Below are positions 4,642-12,400 of a DNA stretch of 18,470 bases, one piece after another. Under the pieces are notes generated by a model, which was given only the letters and a program-made list of their open reading frames with translations, did not search any database and was not told the DNA's origin. The position numbers and the translations under genes were made by a program. The stretch's first letter is position 1, and the number at the start of each line of letters is the position of its first letter. Source of the stretch: an uncultured Oscillibacter sp. (GTDB lineage: Bacteria; Bacillota_A; Clostridia; Oscillospirales; Oscillospiraceae); contig CAQVQZ010000019.1 of NCBI GenBank assembly GCA_948902155.1, forward strand, positions 1 to 18,470, in the 5' to 3' direction.

Positions 4642-6690
4642 TCACCGGACCACAATCTCCGTCCGCCGCCCCAGCCGGGACAAAATCTCATTGGTAATGC
4701 TCCCGCAGCGCTCCGCCACTTCCGCCGCCGTGATCTCCCATTCGCCGTCCCGCCCGATGAGGGTGGCGGCGTCCCCCGCCCGGACCTCCGGGACCCCGGT
4801 CACGTCCACCAGCAGCTGGTCCATGCACATCCGCCCCGCCATGGGGCAGGCCCGCCCCCGGAGCAGCACCCGCCCGCCCTGCCGGGACAACGCCCTGGGC
4901 AGCCCGTCGGCGTAGCCGATGGCCAGCACCGCCAGCCGGGTCTCCCGCTCCGCCTGGAACTCCAGCCCGTAGCCCGCCCGCTCCCCGGCCCGGAGAGTCC
5001 GGACGCAGGCCACTCTGGCCCGGAGGGACAGCACCGGCCTCAGGTCCGGCCACTGCCGGACGGCCCCGCCGTCGCTGGGGACCCCGTAGAGCACGATGCC
5101 CGCCCGGACATACCCGCAGGGCTGGGGCGGCAGGTTCAGCAGGCCGTAGCTGGCCTGCACGTGGACCTTCCCCACGCCGAACCCCGCCCGCCGCAGCCGC
5201 TCCACGGCCCGGTAAAAGCGGTCCAGCTGGTCCTGGGTCTCCGCCTCCCGGGTCAGGTCGTCGGAGACGCAGAGGTGGGAAAACACGCCGCCGATTCGAA
5301 GCTCCCGCCGCCGGAACAGCCCCGCCAGGGCCTCCCCGTCCTCCGCCGGGACCCCCAGGCGGTGCATCCCCGTGTCCAGGGCCAGATGGACCCGGACCGG
5401 CTTCCCCATGTCCGCCAGGGCGTGGCCGTGGGCCGCGTCCGCCACGGTCTGGGTCAGCCGCCAGCGGCGGAGCAGGGGGACCGCCTCCGGCGGCGTGTAG
5501 CCTAAAATCAAAATCGTCCCCCGGATGCCGCCCTTCCGCAAAGCGACGCCCTCGGCCAGACAGGCCACCGCGAAGGCCCGGACTCCCGCCCGGTACAGAC
5601 ACCGGGCGCATGGGACCGCCCCGTGGCCGTAGGCGTCGGCTTTCAGGACCGCCATCAGCTCACAGCCCTGGGGCAGCAGGGCCCGGAGGGCCTGGGCGTT
5701 GTGCCGGAGGGCTTCCAGGTCCACCTCCCGCCAGGACCGGCTTTTGGCCGGGACCGGCAGGGGCCGCAGCCCGTCCAGCGCCAAGGCGGCGGCGAAGGAA
5801 AGCGCCAGCACCGCCCCGAAATGCCCCAGGCTGTTCTCCACCAGCAGCCGGCGAAGCCCCGCAGCCTTCGCAATTCCCCGGACCAGAACGATGCAGAGGG
5901 GATGGAGCAGGTAGACCAGCAGGGACAATCGCCTGGCCCGCCGGTCCTCCCCCTGGTTTTCCCCCAGCAGCAGGGAGAAGAGGAAGATCATGCACAGCGG
6001 CAGGAACAGGTACATGCTGTCGTGCCTCTGCCACCCCAGCCCCTGGAGCAGGAAGCCCTCGGCGGTCATCCCCGCCAGGCCCAGGAGGACCCCCGGAAGG
6101 GCGGCGCGGCGGTCCCACCGCCGTTCCTCCGCCCCCAGGAGCAGGAACAGCGGCGCGAAAAACAGTCCGTTCCGGCTGTAGGAGAACACCCGGAACATCC
6201 CGTCATAAAACGCCTCCAGGGCCGGGACCCGGCAGATAAGCCCGTAATAGCTGTCGCCGCCCAGCCCAACCAGGTACAGCGCCACAGCGAGGACGAATCC
6301 CCAGCGCCTCCCCGCCAGCCCTTTGGCGATGAGCACGCCCAGCGCCACGGCGGGAAAGTACCAGAGGTGGTACAGCGTCCCCTCCGTCAGCAGCTTCCGC
6401 GCCCATTCCAGCGGCCCGTACCCGCCGCTGTAGAGGTTCAGAGGTAGATAGAGCGCCACGGCGGCGGCGTAGACCGCCAGGGTTTTTTTCAGGAATCTCC
6501 CCGTGCCGCTCCAGCCGTCCCGGCCCAGGAAATACCCGCTGGTCATGAAGAAAAAGGGCACCGCCGTCCGGGCCAGGACCCGGCAGAGCCAGAAGTCCGC
6601 CGCCGGGCGCCAGGACCCCAGGGGCCCGGTGTGGATGCACACCACCAGCACCGCCGCCAGGAGGCGGAAGCGGTCTAAGGCGGGCCTCAT
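4642..6690 (-). CDS. vanT: VanT-type membrane serine racemase (acyltransferase-3 domain + alanine/serine racemase)
   Basis: This two-domain protein of 682 aa makes D-Ser (and D-Ala) from the L-form for cell-wall precursors. Residues 1 to about 310 form a polytopic membrane domain of the acyltransferase-3 type (VVCIHTGP at 17-24; PFFFMTSGYF at 45-54). It is proposed in the VanT family to take up or present L-Ser. Residues of about 318-682 are a fold-type III alanine racemase with PLP lysine K350 (KADAYGHGA) and catalytic tyrosine Y574 (AGYGLEF). The end, GSITNEILSRLG, is typical of VanT. Family members are about 700 aa. The ATG at 6690 overlaps the vanXY stop (ATGA). A longer in-frame opening upstream to 6939 is rejected because it lies inside vanXY and adds no recognisable sequence. 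It is the last gene of the van operon. Confidence 0.93.
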   Translation of the reverse strand: MRPALDRFRLLAAVLVVCIHTGPLGSWRPAADFWLCRVLARTAVPFFFMTSGYFLGRDGWSGTGRFLKKTLAVYAAAVALYLPLNLYSGGYGPLEWARKLLTEGTLYHLWYFPAVALGVLIAKGLAGRRWGFVLAVALYLVGLGGDSYYGLICRVPALEAFYDGMFRVFSYSRNGLFFAPLFLLLGAEERRWDRRAALPGVLLGLAGMTAEGFLLQGLGWQRHDSMYLFLPLCMIFLFSLLLGENQGEDRRARRLSLLVYLLHPLCIVLVRGIAKAAGLRRLLVENSLGHFGAVLALSFAAALALDGLRPLPVPAKSRSWREVDLEALRHNAQALRALLPQGCELMAVLKADAYGHGAVPCARCLYRAGVRAFAVACLAEGVALRKGGIRGTILILGYTPPEAVPLLRRWRLTQTVADAAHGHALADMGKPVRVHLALDTGMHRLGVPAEDGEALAGLFRRRELRIGGVFSHLCVSDDLTREAETQDQLDRFYRAVERLRRAGFGVGKVHVQASYGLLNLPPQPCGYVRAGIVLYGVPSDGGAVRQWPDLRPVLSLRARVACVRTLRAGERAGYGLEFQAERETRLAVLAIGYADGLPRALSRQGGRVLLRGRACPMAGRMCMDQLLVDVTGVPEVRAGDAATLIGRDGEWEITAAEVAERCGSITNEILSRLGRRTEIVVR

Positions 6691-7433
6691 GCCGGGTTCT
6701 CCCAGACGGTGAGGATGAAACCGCCGCCGTTGTCCCCGGAAATCTGACAGATTCCCTCCGGCAGCTCCGCCTCCACCGTCTCGCCGGGGCAGGCCAGCCA
6801 GGAGACTTCGACCCGCCGCCCGTTGGCGAGGCGAAGGCGCCTGGGCCCCGTCCGCAGGAAGTCCCCGTACTCCTCCAAACAAAGCCCGTTTTCCTCCAGC
6901 AGGGCCGCGTGGGGCGCGCCCACATAGCGGAAGTGCCACGGCTCCTCGCTGATGCCGGTGACGTCCTCCTTCTCCCGCCGGTAGCGCTGGACGAAGCCGT
7001 ATTCCGCCGCCAGGCGGCGGAACGCGCCGCAGACCCCGTCCCTCGGGAAGTCGGGCCGGAGGAAGTCGATGTGCTCCGCCCGCTTCCCCAGGTCGATGGC
7101 CAGCCCCGTCTGGTGCTCACTGCACCCCGGCAGGGCCACGTAGCGGCGGGTGAAGTCCTCGCCCTCTTTGGCCCAGGTGTCGTCCCAGATGGAGCACTGC
7201 TCCTGAAAGCTCCGCCAGCCGGAGACGGGAACGATGTCCCCCGCGCCGCCCGCCGCCCGGATGCAGGCCGCCAGCACGCTGGCGGTCTTCCGCTCCAGCA
7301 GCACTTCCGGCCACCGGCTGTCCGGGGCCATGAGCTCCGGCGCGGGGCCTCCGGCGGGGAGGGGATGGGTGGGATTCACCAGAATCAGAGACCCCTGGGC
7401 GGTCTGCTCCCGCCGCAGCGTCACGGTCCTCAT
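6687..7433 (-). CDS. vanXY: VanXY-type D,D-dipeptidase/D,D-carboxypeptidase (peptidase M15B)
   Basis: This predicted zinc peptidase of 248 aa removes precursors ending in D-Ala-D-Ala, so that D-Ala-D-Ser-ending ones prevail. Zinc and catalytic residues are visible: H107 and D114 in SEHQTGLAIDLG, E164 and H167 in EEPWHFRY. SGWRSFQEQ (71-79) is the usual substrate-side motif of VanY/VanXY proteins. No signal peptide or N-terminal membrane segment is seen, consistent with cytosolic VanXY rather than membrane-bound VanY. A C-terminal extension of about 50 residues (about 195-248, ending SGDNGGGFILTVW) lies beyond the peptidase fold; I recall a similar tail in VanXY of the G type but could not check it. 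The start overlaps the vanG stop and the stop overlaps the vanT start (both ATGA), implying coupled translation. Confidence 0.9.
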   Translation of the reverse strand: MRTVTLRREQTAQGSLILVNPTHPLPAGGPAPELMAPDSRWPEVLLERKTASVLAACIRAAGGAGDIVPVSGWRSFQEQCSIWDDTWAKEGEDFTRRYVALPGCSEHQTGLAIDLGKRAEHIDFLRPDFPRDGVCGAFRRLAAEYGFVQRYRREKEDVTGISEEPWHFRYVGAPHAALLEENGLCLEEYGDFLRTGPRRLRLANGRRVEVSWLACPGETVEAELPEGICQISGDNGGGFILTVWENPA

Positions 7434-8482
7434 GCCTCCACCCCCAGTTCCACCAGGCGGTCCAGCAGGGCGGGGAAGTCCAGGCCGATGGCCTTCATCA
7501 TGCTGGGATAGCGGCTGTGAGAGGTGAAGCCGGGAATGGTGTTCACCTCGTTGAAGACGACCTCGCCCTGAGTCGTCAGGAAGAAGTCCACACGGGCGAA
7601 GACCCGGCAGTCCAGGGCCGCGTAGACGGTCCGCGCCGCCGCCTGGACCTCCCGGGCTTTCTCCGGGGAAATCCTTGCGGGGCAGTGGATAGCGGAGGTT
7701 TTCAGGGTGTACTTTTCTTCAAAATCGAAAAACCCGCCGGAGAGCTCGATCTCGTCCACGGCCCCCACGGTCAGCTCCGTTTGGCCGGGATTACCCAGGA
7801 CGGCGCAGCCCACCTCGAAGCCGGGGACCGCCTCCTCCAGCAGCACCCGATCGTCGTGCCGGAACGCGGCCTCTACGGCGGCGGGCAGATTCTCCGCCCG
7901 CTCCACCCGGCTGATGCCGAAGGAGGACCCGGCCCGGACGGGCTTGACGAACAGCGGCCAGCCCAGCCTCTCCGCCGCCTCGGCGCAGCCCTCCGGCAGG
8001 GAGGAGGAAGCGCCCCGCCGGGGAGCGGAAAAGCACGCGCTCCTGGGGACCCGGACTCCCGCCAGCGCCGCCAAGGCGTGGGCGCGGTCCTTGTCCATGC
8101 ACAAGGCGCTGGACAGCGTCCCGCAGCCGATCACCGGCGCGCCGGCCAGCTCCAGAAGGCCCTGGACCGTGCCGTCTTCGCCGTTTTTCCCGTGGAGGAC
8201 GGGGAAGGCGGCGTCAAAGGAAAGCGCCTCTCCTCCGCCGTCCAAAAGCAGCAGCGCGGCTTGGCCCCGGTCCAGCCGCAGGGTGCAGGGAAGGGAATTT
8301 TTTTGCCAATGTGCGTCCGGAAGGCCGCCGGGGCAATAGCGCCATTCGCCCTCCTTGGTGATGCCCACCGGCAGAAGGCGGTACCGGGTTTTGTCCAAAT
8401 GGGCCAGCACCGCCTGAGCGGACTGGAGGGAGACGCCGTGCTCACTGGAGCAGCCGCCGAAGAGAATCAGTATCGTTTTCAT
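7430..8482 (-). CDS. vanG: VanG-type D-alanine--D-serine ligase
   Basis: This ATP-grasp ligase of 350 aa is predicted to join D-Ala and D-Ser in the cytosol. The resulting depsi-free dipeptide lowers vancomycin affinity of peptidoglycan precursors. The Ddl family motifs are present: GGCSSEHGVSLQSA (9-22), HGKNGEDGTVQGLLELAG (97-114), KPVRAGSSFGISRV (180-193), RVDFF (297-301), and NEVNTIPGFTSHSRYP (311-326). The omega-loop carries EKY (256-258) in FDFEEKYTLKTS. That pattern is shared by D-Ala-D-Ser/D-Ala ligases and differs from the histidine-bearing loop of the D-Ala-D-Lac ligases VanA/VanB. Operon context with vanT and vanXY argues for D-Ser over an ordinary Ddl. The start is the ATG at 8482, preceded by AGGAAAGG. 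Substrate choice is inferred, not shown. Confidence 0.9.
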   Translation of the reverse strand: MKTILILFGGCSSEHGVSLQSAQAVLAHLDKTRYRLLPVGITKEGEWRYCPGGLPDAHWQKNSLPCTLRLDRGQAALLLLDGGGEALSFDAAFPVLHGKNGEDGTVQGLLELAGAPVIGCGTLSSALCMDKDRAHALAALAGVRVPRSACFSAPRRGASSSLPEGCAEAAERLGWPLFVKPVRAGSSFGISRVERAENLPAAVEAAFRHDDRVLLEEAVPGFEVGCAVLGNPGQTELTVGAVDEIELSGGFFDFEEKYTLKTSAIHCPARISPEKAREVQAAARTVYAALDCRVFARVDFFLTTQGEVVFNEVNTIPGFTSHSRYPSMMKAIGLDFPALLDRLVELGVEA

Positions 8483-8513
8483 CGTCCATCAAACCCTTTC
8501 CTGGGGCAAAGAG

Positions 8514-8554
8514 CCGCCCCGATCTGTTGGGTCCATCCTAGCAGATCGGGGCGG
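8514..8554. other. 13-bp perfect inverted repeat in the vanS-vanG gap
   Basis: CCGCCCCGATCTG (8514-8526) and its exact complement (8542-8554) enclose a 15-base loop, between vanS and the vanG ribosome binding site. No U-tract follows on either strand, so it is not a standard terminator. It could be an mRNA-stabilising or attenuating hairpin or a protein site. An extended -10-like TGCTAGGAT on the - strand (TAGGAT at 8535-8540) lies largely in its loop. Confidence 0.6.
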
Positions 8555-8575
8555 TTCGGGTTTGAAGGCTTTTAT

Positions 8576-8619
8576 GTAAATTTCGTGAAAATTTCCTTAG
8601 AAATCCTTGAGAATTTCTT
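8576..8619 (-). promoter_or_regulatory. Four tandem 11-bp direct repeats, probable VanR operator for vanG-vanXY-vanT
   Basis: Read on the - strand, four consecutive 11-mers align without gaps: AAGAAATTCTC (8609-8619), AAGGATTTCTA (8598-8608), AGGAAATTTTC (8587-8597) and ACGAAATTTAC (8576-8586). Positions 1, 3, 5, 7 and 8 (A, G, A, T, T) are invariant. An 11-bp period in direct orientation is the usual layout of OmpR/PhoB-family response-regulator sites. The array overlaps the final codons and stop of vanS and lies about 95-135 bp before the ligase start. Binding by VanR is an inference. Confidence 0.6.
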
Positions 8620-9742
8620 GCGATGGGGGGGCAGTTCCCTGTTTGTTCACAAACGGCGGGAGGCGGACGGTGAAGACCGTTTCGCCGTCCTCGCTCCGGG
8701 CGGAGATGGTTCCGCCGTGGAGCTCGACGATCTCCCTGGCGATGGCCAGGCCCAGGCCCGCCCCGCCGGGGCGGGTGGCCCGGGAGGAATCCAGGCGGAA
8801 AAACTGGTCGAAGATCCGGCCCAGCTTGTCCGGAGGAATCGTGACGCCGGTGTTGGCAAACGTCAGGATTGGGCCGTCCTCATTTTGGACGGCGGCGATC
8901 TTCACAGCGGTGCCCGGCTCGCTGTAGTGACAGGCGTTCCGGAGGAGGTTGTCGAAGACCCGCGCCAGCTTGTCCGGGTCGCAGGGGTAGGACAGGGACT
9001 CCGGCAGGTCCAGCTTGCAGGTCAGGCCCCGCTCGTCCAGCATGGGGGCGAACTCGCTGGCCACCTGCTGGAGCATCCGGCTCAGGTCGCAGGGGCGCTT
9101 CTCCAGCTCCATCCGGGTGAGATTGAACCGGGTGACGTCGAAAAACTCGTTGATGAGGTCCTCCAGGCGCTCCGCCTTGTCCAGGGCCACGCCGGTGTAC
9201 CGGGCCCGGAACTCCGGGGACAGGTCCGGCTCGTCCCGGAGAAGGGTCAGGTAGCCGATGACGCTGGTCAGGGGCGTTTTCAGGTCGTGGGCCAGGTAGA
9301 CCACCAGGTCGTTCTTCCGCTGCTCCGCCTCACGGGCGGTATAGGCGGCCCGGAGGGAGCGGCTTTTTGCCAGGTTCAGGTGCTCCTCCAGCTCGGACAG
9401 TTCCGGGGAGAGGACGATGGACTCGTCGTCTTCCAGGTCCGTCAGGATGTCCGCCGCCTCGGCCATCTCGTCCAGGAAGAGGAGGGGCTTGCGGATGAAG
9501 TGGACGCTGCACCCCAGCCAGGAAAGACCCACGGACAGGACGAACAGCAGGAGGACGTAGTCCCGGCAGAAGGTGATCAGGTAGCGCAAAAGCAGGTTTT
9601 CCCGCCAGAAGCCAAAGGTCCCGAAGAAGAAGGTCGAGAACAGCGCCAGGAAGGTCACGGCTCCCAGGGAGCCGAAAAGGCTCAGGGCGTACTGGAGCAG
9701 AATTTTCCGGGAGACACGCCCGGTGTAGTTGAAATCATTCAA
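8597..9742 (-). CDS. vanS: VanS-type sensor histidine kinase
   Basis: This membrane sensor kinase of 381 aa is predicted to control VanR phosphorylation in response to glycopeptide or wall stress. Two membrane segments at about 18-45 and 58-80 flank only a short external loop, as in VanS proteins with minimal sensing domains. A HAMP-like linker follows. The H-box is YLAHDLKTPLTSV with H152. The N-box is FDNLLRNACHYS (263-274), and the ATP-binding G boxes are ANTGVTIPPDKLGRIFDQFFR (296-316) and GGAGLGLAIAREI. Translation appears to start at TTG (9742). That codon overlaps the vanR end by 8 bases and follows a G-rich ribosome site (GGGGTGGGG); no in-frame ATG is better placed. The C-terminal codons overlap the 11-bp operator repeats. 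Confidence 0.92.
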   Translation of the reverse strand: MNDFNYTGRVSRKILLQYALSLFGSLGAVTFLALFSTFFFGTFGFWRENLLLRYLITFCRDYVLLLFVLSVGLSWLGCSVHFIRKPLLFLDEMAEAADILTDLEDDESIVLSPELSELEEHLNLAKSRSLRAAYTAREAEQRKNDLVVYLAHDLKTPLTSVIGYLTLLRDEPDLSPEFRARYTGVALDKAERLEDLINEFFDVTRFNLTRMELEKRPCDLSRMLQQVASEFAPMLDERGLTCKLDLPESLSYPCDPDKLARVFDNLLRNACHYSEPGTAVKIAAVQNEDGPILTFANTGVTIPPDKLGRIFDQFFRLDSSRATRPGGAGLGLAIAREIVELHGGTISARSEDGETVFTVRLPPFVNKQGTAPPSQEILKDF

Positions 9743-10424
9743 TGGTGTACCCCACCCCCCAGACGGTTTTGATGAACTTTGGCCTGCGGCTGGGCTCGTG
9801 CATCTTCTCCCGCAGGCGGGCGATGTGGCTCATGACCGTGTTGTTGCTGTCCATGTACTTCTCGCCCCAGACGGCCTCGAACAGCTCCTCGCTGGGGACC
9901 ACCCGGCCCTGCCGCTGGCACAGGTGCCAGAGGATGGAGAACTCCAGGGGCGTCAGGGACAGCTCCTCGCCGAAGAGAAAGCACTTGTGGGTCTGCCTGG
10001 AAATCTGGAGGCCCCGGATGTCGAACTCCTGGGCTTCCTCCTGGGGCGGGCGGTTGTAGCGGGTGCAGCGGCGGAGCTGGGTCTTGACGCGGGCCGTCAG
10101 CTCCAGGGGGTTGAAGGGCTTTGTGATGTAGTCGTCGGCCCCCAGGGTGAGGCCGGTGATCTTGTCCATGTCCTCCACGCGGGCGGTGAGCATGATGATG
10201 GGGAACACGTGGCGCTCCCGGATGCGCTGGCACAGGGCGAAGCCGTCCATGTCCGGCAGCATCACGTCCAGGACCGCCAGGTCCGGCGGCGTGCGTTCCA
10301 TGTGGGCCAGGGCGGGGAGGGCGCTGTTGAATTTATGGACGGTGAAGCCCTCGTTTTTGAGGTACAGCTCCACCAGATCGGCGATGGCCGTCTCGTCGTC
10401 GACGACCAGGATGTCTGCGGACAT
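9735..10424 (-). CDS. vanR: VanR-type OmpR/PhoB-family response regulator
   Basis: This two-domain regulator of 229 aa is the partner of the adjacent VanS. The receiver domain (1 to about 118) has the acidic pair D9/D10, phosphoacceptor D53 (VLDVMLPDMDG), T80 and K102 (TKPFNP). A winged-helix DNA-binding domain occupies about 127-229 (LTPLEFSILWHLC; VMSHIARLREK; KTVWGVGYTIE). The ATG at 10424 begins exactly at the conserved MSADILVVDDE start; a longer frame upstream to 10574 runs through the promoter and is rejected. Its own promoter lies at 10461-10489. It heads the van cluster, as in C. difficile vanG-like loci. Confidence 0.94.
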   Translation of the reverse strand: MSADILVVDDETAIADLVELYLKNEGFTVHKFNSALPALAHMERTPPDLAVLDVMLPDMDGFALCQRIRERHVFPIIMLTARVEDMDKITGLTLGADDYITKPFNPLELTARVKTQLRRCTRYNRPPQEEAQEFDIRGLQISRQTHKCFLFGEELSLTPLEFSILWHLCQRQGRVVPSEELFEAVWGEKYMDSNNTVMSHIARLREKMHEPSRRPKFIKTVWGVGYTIE

Positions 10425-10489: not shown

Positions 10490-10522
10490 GCGGGAGGTTT
10501 GGCTTGACATCGGGGGAGGTTT
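10478..10522 (+). repeat. Three direct repeats GGGAGGTTT in the divergent promoter region
   Basis: GGGAGGTTT occurs exactly at 10478-10486, 10492-10500 and 10514-10522. The first copy overlaps the vanR -35 box, and the third lies in the spacer of the + strand promoter. The offsets are 14 and 22 bp. They may be a regulator site shared by both promoters; the sequence differs from the AT-rich repeats at the end of vanS. Confidence 0.55.
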
Positions 10523-10531
10523 GGGTATAAT
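10504..10531 (+). promoter_or_regulatory. Consensus promoter of the antisense RNA
   Basis: TTGACA (10504-10509), a 16-bp spacer and TATAAT (10526-10531) match the sigma-A consensus at all twelve positions. Transcription should start near 10538 and head into the small-peptide locus on the opposite strand. No protein gene lies downstream on this strand, so it points to an RNA. Confidence 0.85.
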
Positions 10532-10567
10532 AAAAATAGAAGGGCGCCGCTGCATGGCGGTTCGCCC
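10532..10567 (-). terminator. Terminator of the small-peptide mRNA
   Basis: On the - strand, GGGCG, an AA bulge, CCGC, a 6-base loop, GCGG and CGCCC form a 9-bp stem. It is followed by TTCTATTTTTATT. This makes a good intrinsic terminator for the - strand transcript. Its complement is the 5' hairpin of the antisense RNA. Confidence 0.7.
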
Positions 10568-10593
10568 GAGACAATTAGCTAAGCAAATGAATC

Positions 10594-10626
10594 GCTAGCC
10601 GTTCGGGGGCTGACCGAGCGGCTAGC
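10594..10626. other. 13-bp hairpin overlapping the small-peptide stop codon
   Basis: GCTAGCCGTTCGG (10594-10606) pairs with CCGAGCGGCTAGC (10614-10626) with one G-U pair and a 7-base loop. On the - strand it contains the TAG stop of the 31-aa gene. The U-tracts next to it are weak on both strands, so it is more likely a stability or loop-loop recognition element than the main terminator. Confidence 0.6.
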
Positions 10627-10717
10627 ACGCTTTTGGGGCCAGGTACGCCAGCAGCAACAGCGCTGCTGCCAGCGATACCGCGTAACGCAGGGCTTTTGCC
10701 CAGCGGCCGTCTCCCAC
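10622..10717 (-). CDS. Small hydrophobic 31-aa peptide, candidate type I toxin
   Basis: The peptide starts MGDGRWAKALRYAVS, continues with a single hydrophobic segment (LAAALLLLAYLA, residues 16-27) and ends PKAC. A short basic N-terminus followed by one membrane span is typical of type I toxins and other small membrane peptides. It starts at GTG (10717), exactly 8 bases after a GGAGG ribosome site (10726-10730). Two nearer GTG codons (10723, 10726) are too close to that site. The ribosome site is partly paired in a predicted hairpin (10728-10732 with 10748-10752). It has its own promoter (10813-10840) and terminator, and is fully covered by an antisense transcript. I do not recognise its family. 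Expression is likely; toxicity is inferred. Confidence 0.65.
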   Translation of the reverse strand: MGDGRWAKALRYAVSLAAALLLLAYLAPKAC

Positions 10718-10789
10718 AAGCACCACCTCCCTTCGACCTGAGATCGCAGGGATATGGGCTAACCGCCTCTATGCGGCGGCGTTCCTTCT

Positions 10790-10812
10790 ATGCCCCTTGC
10801 GGGGTATTTTTT
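10790..10812 (+). terminator. Terminator of the antisense RNA
   Basis: A 7-bp stem (ATGCCCC 10790-10796, GGGGTAT 10801-10807, one G-U) with loop TTGC is followed by T at 10807-10812. On the opposite strand the same bases form the 5' hairpin of the small-peptide mRNA. Confidence 0.75.
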
Positions 10813-10840
10813 ATGATATCATATGGGCGGAGTTTGTCAA
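10813..10840 (-). promoter_or_regulatory. Promoter of the small-peptide mRNA
   Basis: On the - strand, TTGACA (10835-10840), a 16-bp spacer and TATCAT (10813-10818) form a strong promoter. Transcription should start near 10806, giving an untranslated leader of about 90 bases before the GTG start. Confidence 0.8.
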
Positions 10841-10945: not shown

Positions 10946-12400
10946 TCAGGCGTCAATCGCGCCGCGCAGGAACTCCCGGACCAGGCGGTACACACGGGCG
11001 GTGGAGGCTACGTCCAGGCGCTCCCGGGGGGAATGAACGTCCCGGAGGTTGGGGCCCAGGGACACCGCGTCCAGGCCGGGGAGCTTCTGGATGAAGATGC
11101 CGCACTCCAGGCCGCCGTGGGTGGCTTCCAGGGTGGGTTCCTTGCCGGTGAGGGTCTGGTAGAGGTCCATCAGCCTCCGGCGCATGGCGGATTCCCGCTG
11201 ATACTGCCAGCCGGGGTAGGAGCTCCGGGGCTCCGCCGTGCCGCCGCCGGTCTCCAGAATGGCCTGGACCCGCCGGCGCAGCATGTCCACCTGGGAGGCG
11301 ACGCAGGAGCGGATGGAAACCGTAGCGGCAAGGCCGTCGTCACGCAGGTCCAGGACGCCCAGGTTCAGGGAGGTCTGCACCAGACCGGGGAAGTCCGCGC
11401 TCATGGCCTGGACGCCCTGGGGCAGGACCAGCAGGGTCCGGAGGACGCGGTGGGTGTCCTCCGGGGTGAGGGCGCTGTCCACCGCCGCCGGTTCGCAGGT
11501 CAGGGTGACGCCTTCGTCGCAGTTGGCATATTCGGTTTTCAGAATGCCGTCAAATTCCTGGATGAAGGCTTCGAACGCCGCCGCTTGGTCCGGCGGGAGG
11601 GCGACGGTTCCCTGGGCCTGGGGGCAGATGACGTTTTCGAATTTGCCGCCCCGCAGGTCCGCCAGACGGAGGCCCGGAATCTGGGCCGACGCGGCGTAGA
11701 GCACCCGGCCCAGCAGCTGGTTGGCGGAGGCGCGGCCCTTGTTGATGTCCACGCCGGAGTGTCCGCCGTGGAGGCCGGAGACGGCGAGGGTCCGTCCGAT
11801 CTCGCCGGACAGGGGCGTCCGGCGGGCGGGGAGGAAGCAGTCCATCCGGACGCCGCCGGAGCAGGAGACGGTAAAGACGCCCTCCTCCTCGGAGTCCAGG
11901 TTCAGAAGCTGGCGGCCCTTCAGGCCGGAGCAGTCCATGGCGAAGGCTCCCACCAGGCCCACCTCTTCATCCGAGGTAAACACCGCCTCCAGGGGCGGGT
12001 GGGGACAGGCGCCGTCCGCCAGGATGGCCAGGATCATCGCCACGGCGATGCCGTTGTCGCCGCCCAGGGACGTGCCCTCGGCCCAGACCCAGGAGCCGTC
12101 GGTGGCCAGGTCCAGGCCCTCCCGGCGCATGTCCTTGGGGCAGTCCGGGGTCTGGGCGCAGACCATGTCCATATGGCCTTGCAGGATGACCGGGGCGGCG
12201 TTTTCGTAGCCGGGGCTGGCGGGCTTCCAGATGACGAGGTTGTTATGCTCGTCCTGGCGGTAAGCGAGGCCCAGGTCTTTGGCGAAGCCCGCGCAGAGGT
12301 CGCTGACCTGCTTGGTGTTGCCGCTGCCGTGGGGGACGGAGCAGAGTTTTTCGAAATATGCGAAGACCTCTTTCGGTTCCAGTTCGGATAGGATGTTCAT
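10946..12400 (-). CDS. pepD: Aminoacyl-histidine dipeptidase / cytosol non-specific dipeptidase (M20 family)
   Basis: This zinc dipeptidase of 484 aa hydrolyses Xaa-His and other dipeptides in the cytosol, in peptide catabolism. The M20 metal and catalytic residues are all visible: H76 and D78 (QGHMDMVC), D115 (SLGGDNGIAVA), E145/E146 (TSDEEVGLVGA), D169 (NLDSEEEG) and H428 (ATHGGLECGIF). The lid/dimerisation segment HGGHSGVDINKGRANS-like is at 211-226. The length fits PepD. The ATG follows AAGGAGG at good spacing, and an own promoter lies at 12455-12483. It separates the van region from the PadR pair and has no evident tie to either. Confidence 0.94.
   Translation of the reverse strand: MNILSELEPKEVFAYFEKLCSVPHGSGNTKQVSDLCAGFAKDLGLAYRQDEHNNLVIWKPASPGYENAAPVILQGHMDMVCAQTPDCPKDMRREGLDLATDGSWVWAEGTSLGGDNGIAVAMILAILADGACPHPPLEAVFTSDEEVGLVGAFAMDCSGLKGRQLLNLDSEEEGVFTVSCSGGVRMDCFLPARRTPLSGEIGRTLAVSGLHGGHSGVDINKGRASANQLLGRVLYAASAQIPGLRLADLRGGKFENVICPQAQGTVALPPDQAAAFEAFIQEFDGILKTEYANCDEGVTLTCEPAAVDSALTPEDTHRVLRTLLVLPQGVQAMSADFPGLVQTSLNLGVLDLRDDGLAATVSIRSCVASQVDMLRRRVQAILETGGGTAEPRSSYPGWQYQRESAMRRRLMDLYQTLTGKEPTLEATHGGLECGIFIQKLPGLDAVSLGPNLRDVHSPRERLDVASTARVYRLVREFLRGAIDA

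Follow-up and report, generated by a model that had tools for sequence, protein, structure and literature searches.

The locus at positions 10532–10840 of the window (the whole 18,470 nt stretch of DNA that was analyzed) raises the question of whether two convergent RNAs and a very short reading frame represent a type I toxin-antitoxin module. It is situated between vanR and pepD, as the earlier note had placed it; both genes are on the minus strand, with vanR starting at 10424 and pepD ending at 10946. Two promoters face each other at the sites where that note had located them. The minus strand promoter of the putative toxin mRNA (TTGACA-16-TATCAT, positions 10813–10840) has 11 of 12 consensus matches and the plus strand promoter of the antisense RNA (TTGACA-16-TATAAT, positions 10504–10531) has 12 of 12. 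A scan of 1.8 kb shows three promoter-like sites compared with 0.3 expected from shuffled sequences, and the third is upstream of vanR. The predicted toxin mRNA is approximately 275 nt (positions 10532–10806, minus strand) and the predicted antisense RNA extends from 10538 to 10812 on the plus strand, the ends of both being predictions as well.

An intrinsic terminator had been proposed for each RNA. The plus strand terminator is present at positions 10790–10812. The minus strand candidate is softer, i.e., a bulged stem of -15.7 kcal/mol followed by TTCTATTTTTA, and neither of two terminator scans calls a canonical terminator for the window mRNA. The nearly complete overlap of two RNAs of about 270 nt, also proposed earlier, holds if the plus strand RNA reaches 10812, which would give the length of ~270 nt. 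A shorter end may be provided by the CTTTT at positions 10630–10634 after the stop-codon hairpin (see below), with a product of ~97 nt. Among 80 copies of the family described below (3 of 83 are dropped for missing flank), a canonical antisense-strand terminator at or just past the mRNA 5' end is called in 48, window included, with 4.6 expected; a terminator upstream of a copy might also serve the neighboring gene. The stop hairpin itself is called a canonical plus strand terminator in 13 of the 80 copies, window excluded (1.0 expected). Given these counts for the far end and for the stop hairpin, a long version of the antisense RNA is considered beside a short one. The full-length antisense RNA is a well founded prediction from sequence, and a shorter product is possible. 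According to PMC6562991, B. subtilis antitoxins pair with the mRNA 3' end across 100–140 bp.

The minus strand contains a frame of 31 codons, as claimed, which encodes MGDGRWAKALRYAVSLAAALLLLAYLAPKAC (positions 10622–10717, with GTG at 10717 and the stop codon at 10624–10622). The GTG aligns with the ATG of relatives. The ribosome site GGAGG (positions 10726–10730, minus strand) is located 8 bases 5' of the start codon, also as described, and its position is constant across aligned relatives. The peptide has a 17-residue hydrophobic stretch starting at residue 12. The single membrane span attributed to it is a property of the family, with 17-residue mean hydropathy of at least 1.6 in 82 of 82 family peptides, and the N-terminus is positively charged in all 82. 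The peptide had not been recognized by the earlier reader, and searches of Pfam, NCBIfam, PHROG and PADLOC give nothing convincing for it. Its sole Pfam row is KH_KhpA-B with an E value of 0.18, far under the cut-off. No toxin profile in Pfam or NCBIfam, Fst and Ldr included, matches the window peptide at E ≤ 10, and it is not matched by the NCBIfam PepG1 and ComI models.

Rather than standing alone, the locus belongs to a multicopy family dispersed in Oscillospirales-type Clostridia. The first relative, L001, was found by blastn in MT836974, an unannotated fecal scaffold. Its sequence differs but the layout is shared, including both promoters, both stems and the ribosome-site hairpin, and its peptide ends in APKAC. 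Further relatives were sought with DNA patterns made from codons shared with L001. The matches are 6 viral-contig stretches, 5 of them real, and 40 stretches in a genome collection. They represent Oscillospiraceae, Flavonifractor, Pseudoflavonifractor, Lawsonibacter, Dysosmobacter, Acutalibacter, Neglectibacter, Anaeromassilibacillus, Caccousia, Clostridiaceae and uncultured Clostridia or Firmicutes. Two chance matches, L006 and L026, the latter in an archaeon, were dropped; the resulting set of 46 copies also omits L030 (5' part missing) and L016 and L040 (duplicates). In this set an antisense promoter-like site with at least 11 of 12 matches is present in 44 copies and an mRNA promoter-like site with at least 10 of 12 in 42, both being counts without a shuffle control. 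A contig end cuts the two copies that miss the antisense promoter (L003 and L047), and two of the four that miss the mRNA promoter (L002, L007, L025 and L036) run into a contig end, L002 and L025. At the promoter level, a putative antisense gene overlaps the predicted toxin mRNA.

Alignment A1 consists of 44 copies, with L003 and L047 left out at contig ends, and covariance model R1 was built from these. All of the 24 known-carrier genomes give R1 matches at E ≤ 1e-3, with 2–18 per genome when fragments and reverse-strand matches are counted. With the cut-off at E ≤ 1e-10, R1 has matches in 55 of 394 genomes in a sample of the order, 25 of 291 in one of the class and 5 of 299 in one of the phylum; each sample is centred on a carrier genome and includes it, and the strict filters miss weak matches. 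Every match of the class sample outside G009 scores 45–72 bits. In one genus-level sample, matches at E ≤ 1e-15 are present in 17 of 29 genomes, and ten of these 17 were known carriers beforehand. A model-found set of 86 matches was reduced to 83 distinct copies by removal of identical rows and of L032, which is the same DNA as L119.

Tandem copies are found in several genomes (L025, L035, L108–L114). A lone stop-hairpin fragment, perhaps the remnant of a third copy, is present between two tandem copies at L039:3559–3598. The phage context was looked at in one genome, G011, where related copies are situated in kilobase stretches that are 77–98% alike. Nearby phage genes encode, at L021, a Phage_cap_E head protein together with a head-decoration protein; L031 has an Amidase_2 endolysin gene in its vicinity, and L046 a gene for a tape-measure-like protein. 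Six copies are from virus collections (L001–L005 and L007), and two of them are contigs of a named isolate.

Secondary structure modeling shows that both RNAs are more stable than 200 of 200 shuffled sequences, with z values of -6.9 for the antisense RNA and -6.5 for the toxin mRNA. A leader hairpin over the ribosome site (positions 10724–10759, minus strand, ends approximate), which had been described as partly hiding that site, is confirmed; the window site is paired with a probability of 0.74. A local upstream hairpin over the ribosome site is found in 72 of 82 copies compared with 24 of 82 when the leaders are shuffled. Overall pairing of the ribosome site is 0.93 vs 0.79 with shuffled leaders, and the difference is mainly in local pairing.

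The two ends of the minus strand RNA can pair because of a 29 nt inverted repeat, the arms of which are 72% complementary. The 5' arm is at positions 10756–10784 and the 3' arm at 10539–10567, the complement of the latter being the 5' hairpin of the antisense RNA. A hairpin at positions 10594–10626 overlaps the stop codon and is present in both RNAs. The 5'-3' stem appears in the folds of 46 of 46 mRNAs of the first set. The stop hairpin is in the lowest-energy fold of 41 of these and is absent in five. RNAalifold gives 34 base pairs for the 44 copies of A1, 17 of them with double changes, and 96.9% of the 1483 pairing cells across the 34 pairs are paired. In 500 shuffles the observed value is never reached, whichever of five measures is used. 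Slid versions of the consensus structure pair 27–45% (at most 44.9%), a comparison in which the consensus structure has the advantage of coming from the same alignment it was tested on. Besides the 5'-3' stem and the stop-codon hairpin, the consensus contains a short helix between UGGG in the start region and CCCA in the C-terminal codons; this last pairing varies at one pair only. The 5'-3' stem and the stop-codon hairpin covary strongly. By prediction, the leader hairpin and the long-range stem would restrain translation of the toxin mRNA. Long-range 5'-3' pairing holds the toxin mRNA inactive in AapA/IsoA and hok, and the present family is like these in its predicted 5'-3' mRNA pairing, a similarity of RNA layout.

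A hypervariable linker (positions 10568–10593 in the window), which may be a specificity tag, separates the stop hairpin from the 3' arm. It is 17–38 nt in length, mostly 20–28 nt, and is part of both predicted RNAs. In a first comparison of 17 within-genome pairs the linker is 62% different vs 5–12% for other regions. For 20 within-genome pairs with an ORF identity of at least 0.95, which are not independent as they come from 5 genomes and 15 are from G011, identity is 0.98 in the ORF, 0.93 in the 3' arm and 0.90 in the stop hairpin, but 0.55 in the linker. The baseline for the linker is 0.49, as determined from between-genome pairs with ORF identities of 0.4–0.6. One pair from each of the 5 genomes shows the same, with linkers of 13/25 (L028/L115), 16/29 (L111 pair) and 19/41 (L108 pair) at an ORF identity of 1.00, 11/25 (L035 pair) at 0.99 and 14/28 (L025 pair) at 0.98. 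L028 and L115 have identical frames, and their flanks agree at 96% of positions across 1502 bp upstream and at 92% across 1102 bp downstream, yet the alignment breaks where the linker lies, and the upstream portion of the antisense promoter differs as well.

Linkers also differ between species. Among 10 between-genome pairs whose flanks are collinear for 1 kb or more, only one has kept its linker, and the other nine are at 0.51–0.65. L015/L108 is among the nine, with a linker identity of 19/37 despite flanks of 1101 bp at 92% and 643 bp at 79%. The pair that keeps the linker is L041/L133 (25/27, with an ORF identity of 67/82); the upstream flank is 93% identical over 1500 bp and the downstream flank is unshared. 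Within genomes, 5 pairs have collinear flanks of this length, and the linker is kept in one of them (L116/L117, 20/20). Exceptions to one tag per copy are two pairs, L116/L117 and L028/L118, the latter with a common linker (21/22) and different toxins. The linker evolves rapidly, both upon duplication and between species.

This pattern suggests that the linker may be the contact site that sets antitoxin specificity and that it is pushed to diverge. A broader proposal is a barcoded addiction chassis, in which a constant RNA frame carries exchanged toxin frames and a diversified linker, such that each antisense RNA silences its own copy only. We put this forward tentatively, at a little short of an even chance. 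The linker may instead be a mutation or recombination hot spot without a role in specificity, an explanation that is somewhat doubtful but carries considerable weight. Linker identity is near the baseline in every within-genome band of ORF identity, as a hot spot would predict, and the nine unrelated linkers between collinear flanks fit it equally. The common linker of L028/L118 beside different toxins implies that pieces recombine, and the difference between L028 and L115 extends to the upstream antisense promoter. However, the divergence ends sharply at the flanking paired elements on both sides, and L041/L133, from two genomes, keep the linker while the ORF has diverged. The linker is also the least paired region in both RNAs, with a mean unpaired value of 0.58 vs 0.20–0.38 elsewhere, as expected for a contact site.

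If the barcode reading is true, co-resident, near-identical prophages could not cross-protect and none could be freely lost. The pattern makes testable the specificity of RNA antitoxins once an element multiplies within one genome, and natural swap pairs are at hand: an identical toxin with a different linker (L028/L115) and a different toxin with the same linker (L028/L118). The L028 and L118 elements (L028:6087–6360 and L118:1538–1827) are in one genome, where their common linker predicts cross-silencing. A short variable region determines which paralogous toxin mRNA is silenced in Orz/Zor and Sib/Ibs of E. coli, and PMC3919570 attributes OrzO/OrzP discrimination to the 3 nt V1. In contrast to these systems, the variable part of the present family is ~20–28 nt, is located in the mRNA 3' region and is near-random between near-identical copies. 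The linker as a phage-target guide was considered and rejected, as the window linker has no exact match in viral contigs, a weak test with one linker.

The RNA layout is of the BsrG/TxpA kind, though the window itself has no BsrG match. No Rfam family matches the window locus at its gathering score, and BsrG (RF01412) shows no match at gathering (55 bits) nor at E ≤ 10. Sub-threshold Rfam matches of the window to mir-503, CRISPR-DR57, GadY and anti-hemB are attributed to chance. The analogy to BsrG/SR4 drawn in the earlier note gains a computed, indirect link through two loci that the family model reaches. L105 scores 55.7 bits with BsrG, above gathering, and the L098 peptide is a Pfam Hol_Tox (PF16935, E 2.3e-12) carried on the same RNA layout. 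BsrG scores for L098, L097 and L099 are 53.9, 43.7 and 39.4 bits, below gathering. The L097 and L105 peptides resemble Hol_Tox by look only, and the Hol_Tox profile does not match the window peptide or three other peptides of the window type. The Hol_Tox relative itself is far below the cut-offs of the NCBIfam PepG1 and ComI models (20.2 against 70 and 19.5 against 55). As in bsrG/SR4 and txpA/RatA of B. subtilis, a small membrane toxin would be paired with a convergent antisense RNA at the mRNA 3' part, and the ribosome site of bsrG is described as partly sequestered in PMC6562991. The window differs from these in that it falls below RF01412 and in that its peptide ends in APKAC and matches no toxin profile.

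The weaker model matches, L088–L107, keep the layout with other peptides, which include a KAR-ending group and the types xPKAM, FPIYAS, MRITLHIG and MxTY. The MxTY peptides of L100 and L091 are Hol_Tox-like by eye and have no Pfam match. Very short peptides, MRITLHIG.../MKRLTLTIQFDKFTVTIVIKKR, are found on the same RNA layout in L096, L091 and L120, and the L091 form has no match in Pfam, NCBIfam, PHROG or PADLOC. The minus strand of L091 (positions 934–2080) has four tandem elements with a near-constant leader and antisense promoter and with two unrelated types of peptide. Two neighboring elements of L091 are identical at 115/122 positions in the promoter and leader and at 72/79 in the 3' arm and antisense promoter, but at 43/92 in the frame. 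These identities imply an exchange of toxins on a constant RNA frame. A comparable toxin exchange between bsrG and bsrE/H loci is described in PMC6562991.

Taken as a whole, the locus is very probably a type I toxin-antitoxin module with a BsrG/TxpA-like 3' overlap. The layout noticed earlier is supported by the recurrence in relatives of the frame, the promoters, the ribosome-site hairpin and the folds, and the locus is a candidate for such a module; transcription, toxicity of the peptide and silencing by the antisense RNA are predicted. In the proposed mechanism, the minus strand would give a compact mRNA that encodes a membrane peptide of 31 residues with a single span, and the end-to-end stem and the leader hairpin would hold translation low. 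A convergent RNA from the consensus promoter would pair with the 3' part of the toxin mRNA. Pairing would probably begin at the linker, which is mostly unpaired, and then extend across the stop hairpin and the 3' arm. By analogy, antisense pairing may lead to RNase III cleavage, to a tighter lock on translation, or to both. Once antisense synthesis ceases, or after loss of the element, the mRNA would outlast the antisense RNA and the peptide would disturb the membrane. 

The type I modules of C. difficile (CD2517.1-RCd8 and others) are similar in having convergent, overlapping genes in Clostridia; according to a 2019 review several of these are in prophages and they are mostly cognate-specific (PMC6563280). 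Their toxins are unlike the window peptide, with 34–59 residues and a charged, lysine-rich C-terminal region compared with 31 residues and APKAC. The review also describes knowledge of clostridial type I modules as limited and the validated ones as restricted to C. difficile (PMC6563280). The present family adds a toxin-like peptide family in gut Clostridia that is unnamed in Pfam, NCBIfam, PHROG and PADLOC. The literature searched, which is mostly open-access, gives no account of the peptide family or of a hypervariable linker in a 3' overlap.

The C-terminal end of the peptide is APKAC in 55 and KAC in 66 of 82 model-found copies. Conservation was judged on these copies, as the search patterns of the first 46 fix most of the APKAC codons; the model behind the model-found copies was itself built from that APKAC-biased set. 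The terminal Cys is sometimes Tyr or Ser (L115, L079, L135, L119, L122, L140, L120, L081 and L126). In L115 the change is matched by a change on the opposite side of the stop hairpin, which implies that stop-hairpin pairing and C-terminal codons constrain each other.

So strongly conserved an end, with toxicity of the peptide being a prediction, would also suit a non-toxic small membrane peptide, e.g., a signal or a regulator of a membrane protein, under antisense control; in a variant of this explanation the conserved C-terminal Cys might be modified or exported. We regard this as unlikely. Radical-SAM-like genes, a class that includes peptide-modifying enzymes, are upstream of two G011 copies, L028 and L031. 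The ORFs have a CxxxCxxC motif and are on the same strand as the copies (L028:6741–7955, L031:2994–4355 and L031:4342–5688), with a Pfam Radical_SAM E value of 0.0032 that is below the cut-off. However, such an ORF is present within 3 kb in only 2 of 49 copies (those of the 83 with at least 1.5 kb on both sides), both in one genome, and an AgrD-like signal peptide was rejected on this count. The RNA forces part of the C-terminal conservation, as these codons overlap with the stop hairpin and also form base pairs with the start region. In addition, the many copies per genome, the tandem arrays and the phage neighbors fit addiction modules, and Hol_Tox is on the same RNA layout in L098.

Preservation of the reading frame was analyzed in the relatives, where frameshifts or stops would speak against a toxin-antitoxin module. 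The frame is open in 82 of the 83 model-found copies, L143 being the sole copy with a broken frame. In 34 independent pairs (equal-length sister pairs, chosen greedily at 60–97% identity) dN/dS is ~0.39, with pS 0.347 and pN 0.163, a count that leaves out the first 2 and the last 6 codons. Differences at the three codon positions are 187/80/203 in these pairs, with second positions the most conserved. Reading the frame one base off gives pS 0.268 and pN 0.188, and two bases off 0.148 and 0.232. Purifying selection acts on the peptide frame. The terminal inverted repeats, the dispersed copies and the failure to find the element beside vanR in 20 relatives might point to a palindromic repeat of mobile-element type, dispersed and with an incidental short frame. 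This is very improbable given the open and selected frame, the ribosome site at a fixed place and the different toxin frames on one chassis.

The place of the element beside vanR is not conserved. The element is beside vanR in 0 of the 20 relatives with the closest vanR found (71–83% identity), one of which, L161, has 160 bp upstream of vanR only. Searches of viral contigs with vanR and pepD gave no relatives, and nothing that links the element to the adjacent genes was seen. These genes, at positions 4642–10424 on the minus strand, represent a vanG-like cluster. It encodes VanR, a VanS-like kinase, a VanG-like D-Ala-D-Ser ligase, a VanXY-G-like carboxypeptidase and a VanT-like membrane racemase; by NCBIfam, the VanS, VanG and VanXY models are below their cut-offs, and VanR and the catalytic part of VanT are above theirs.
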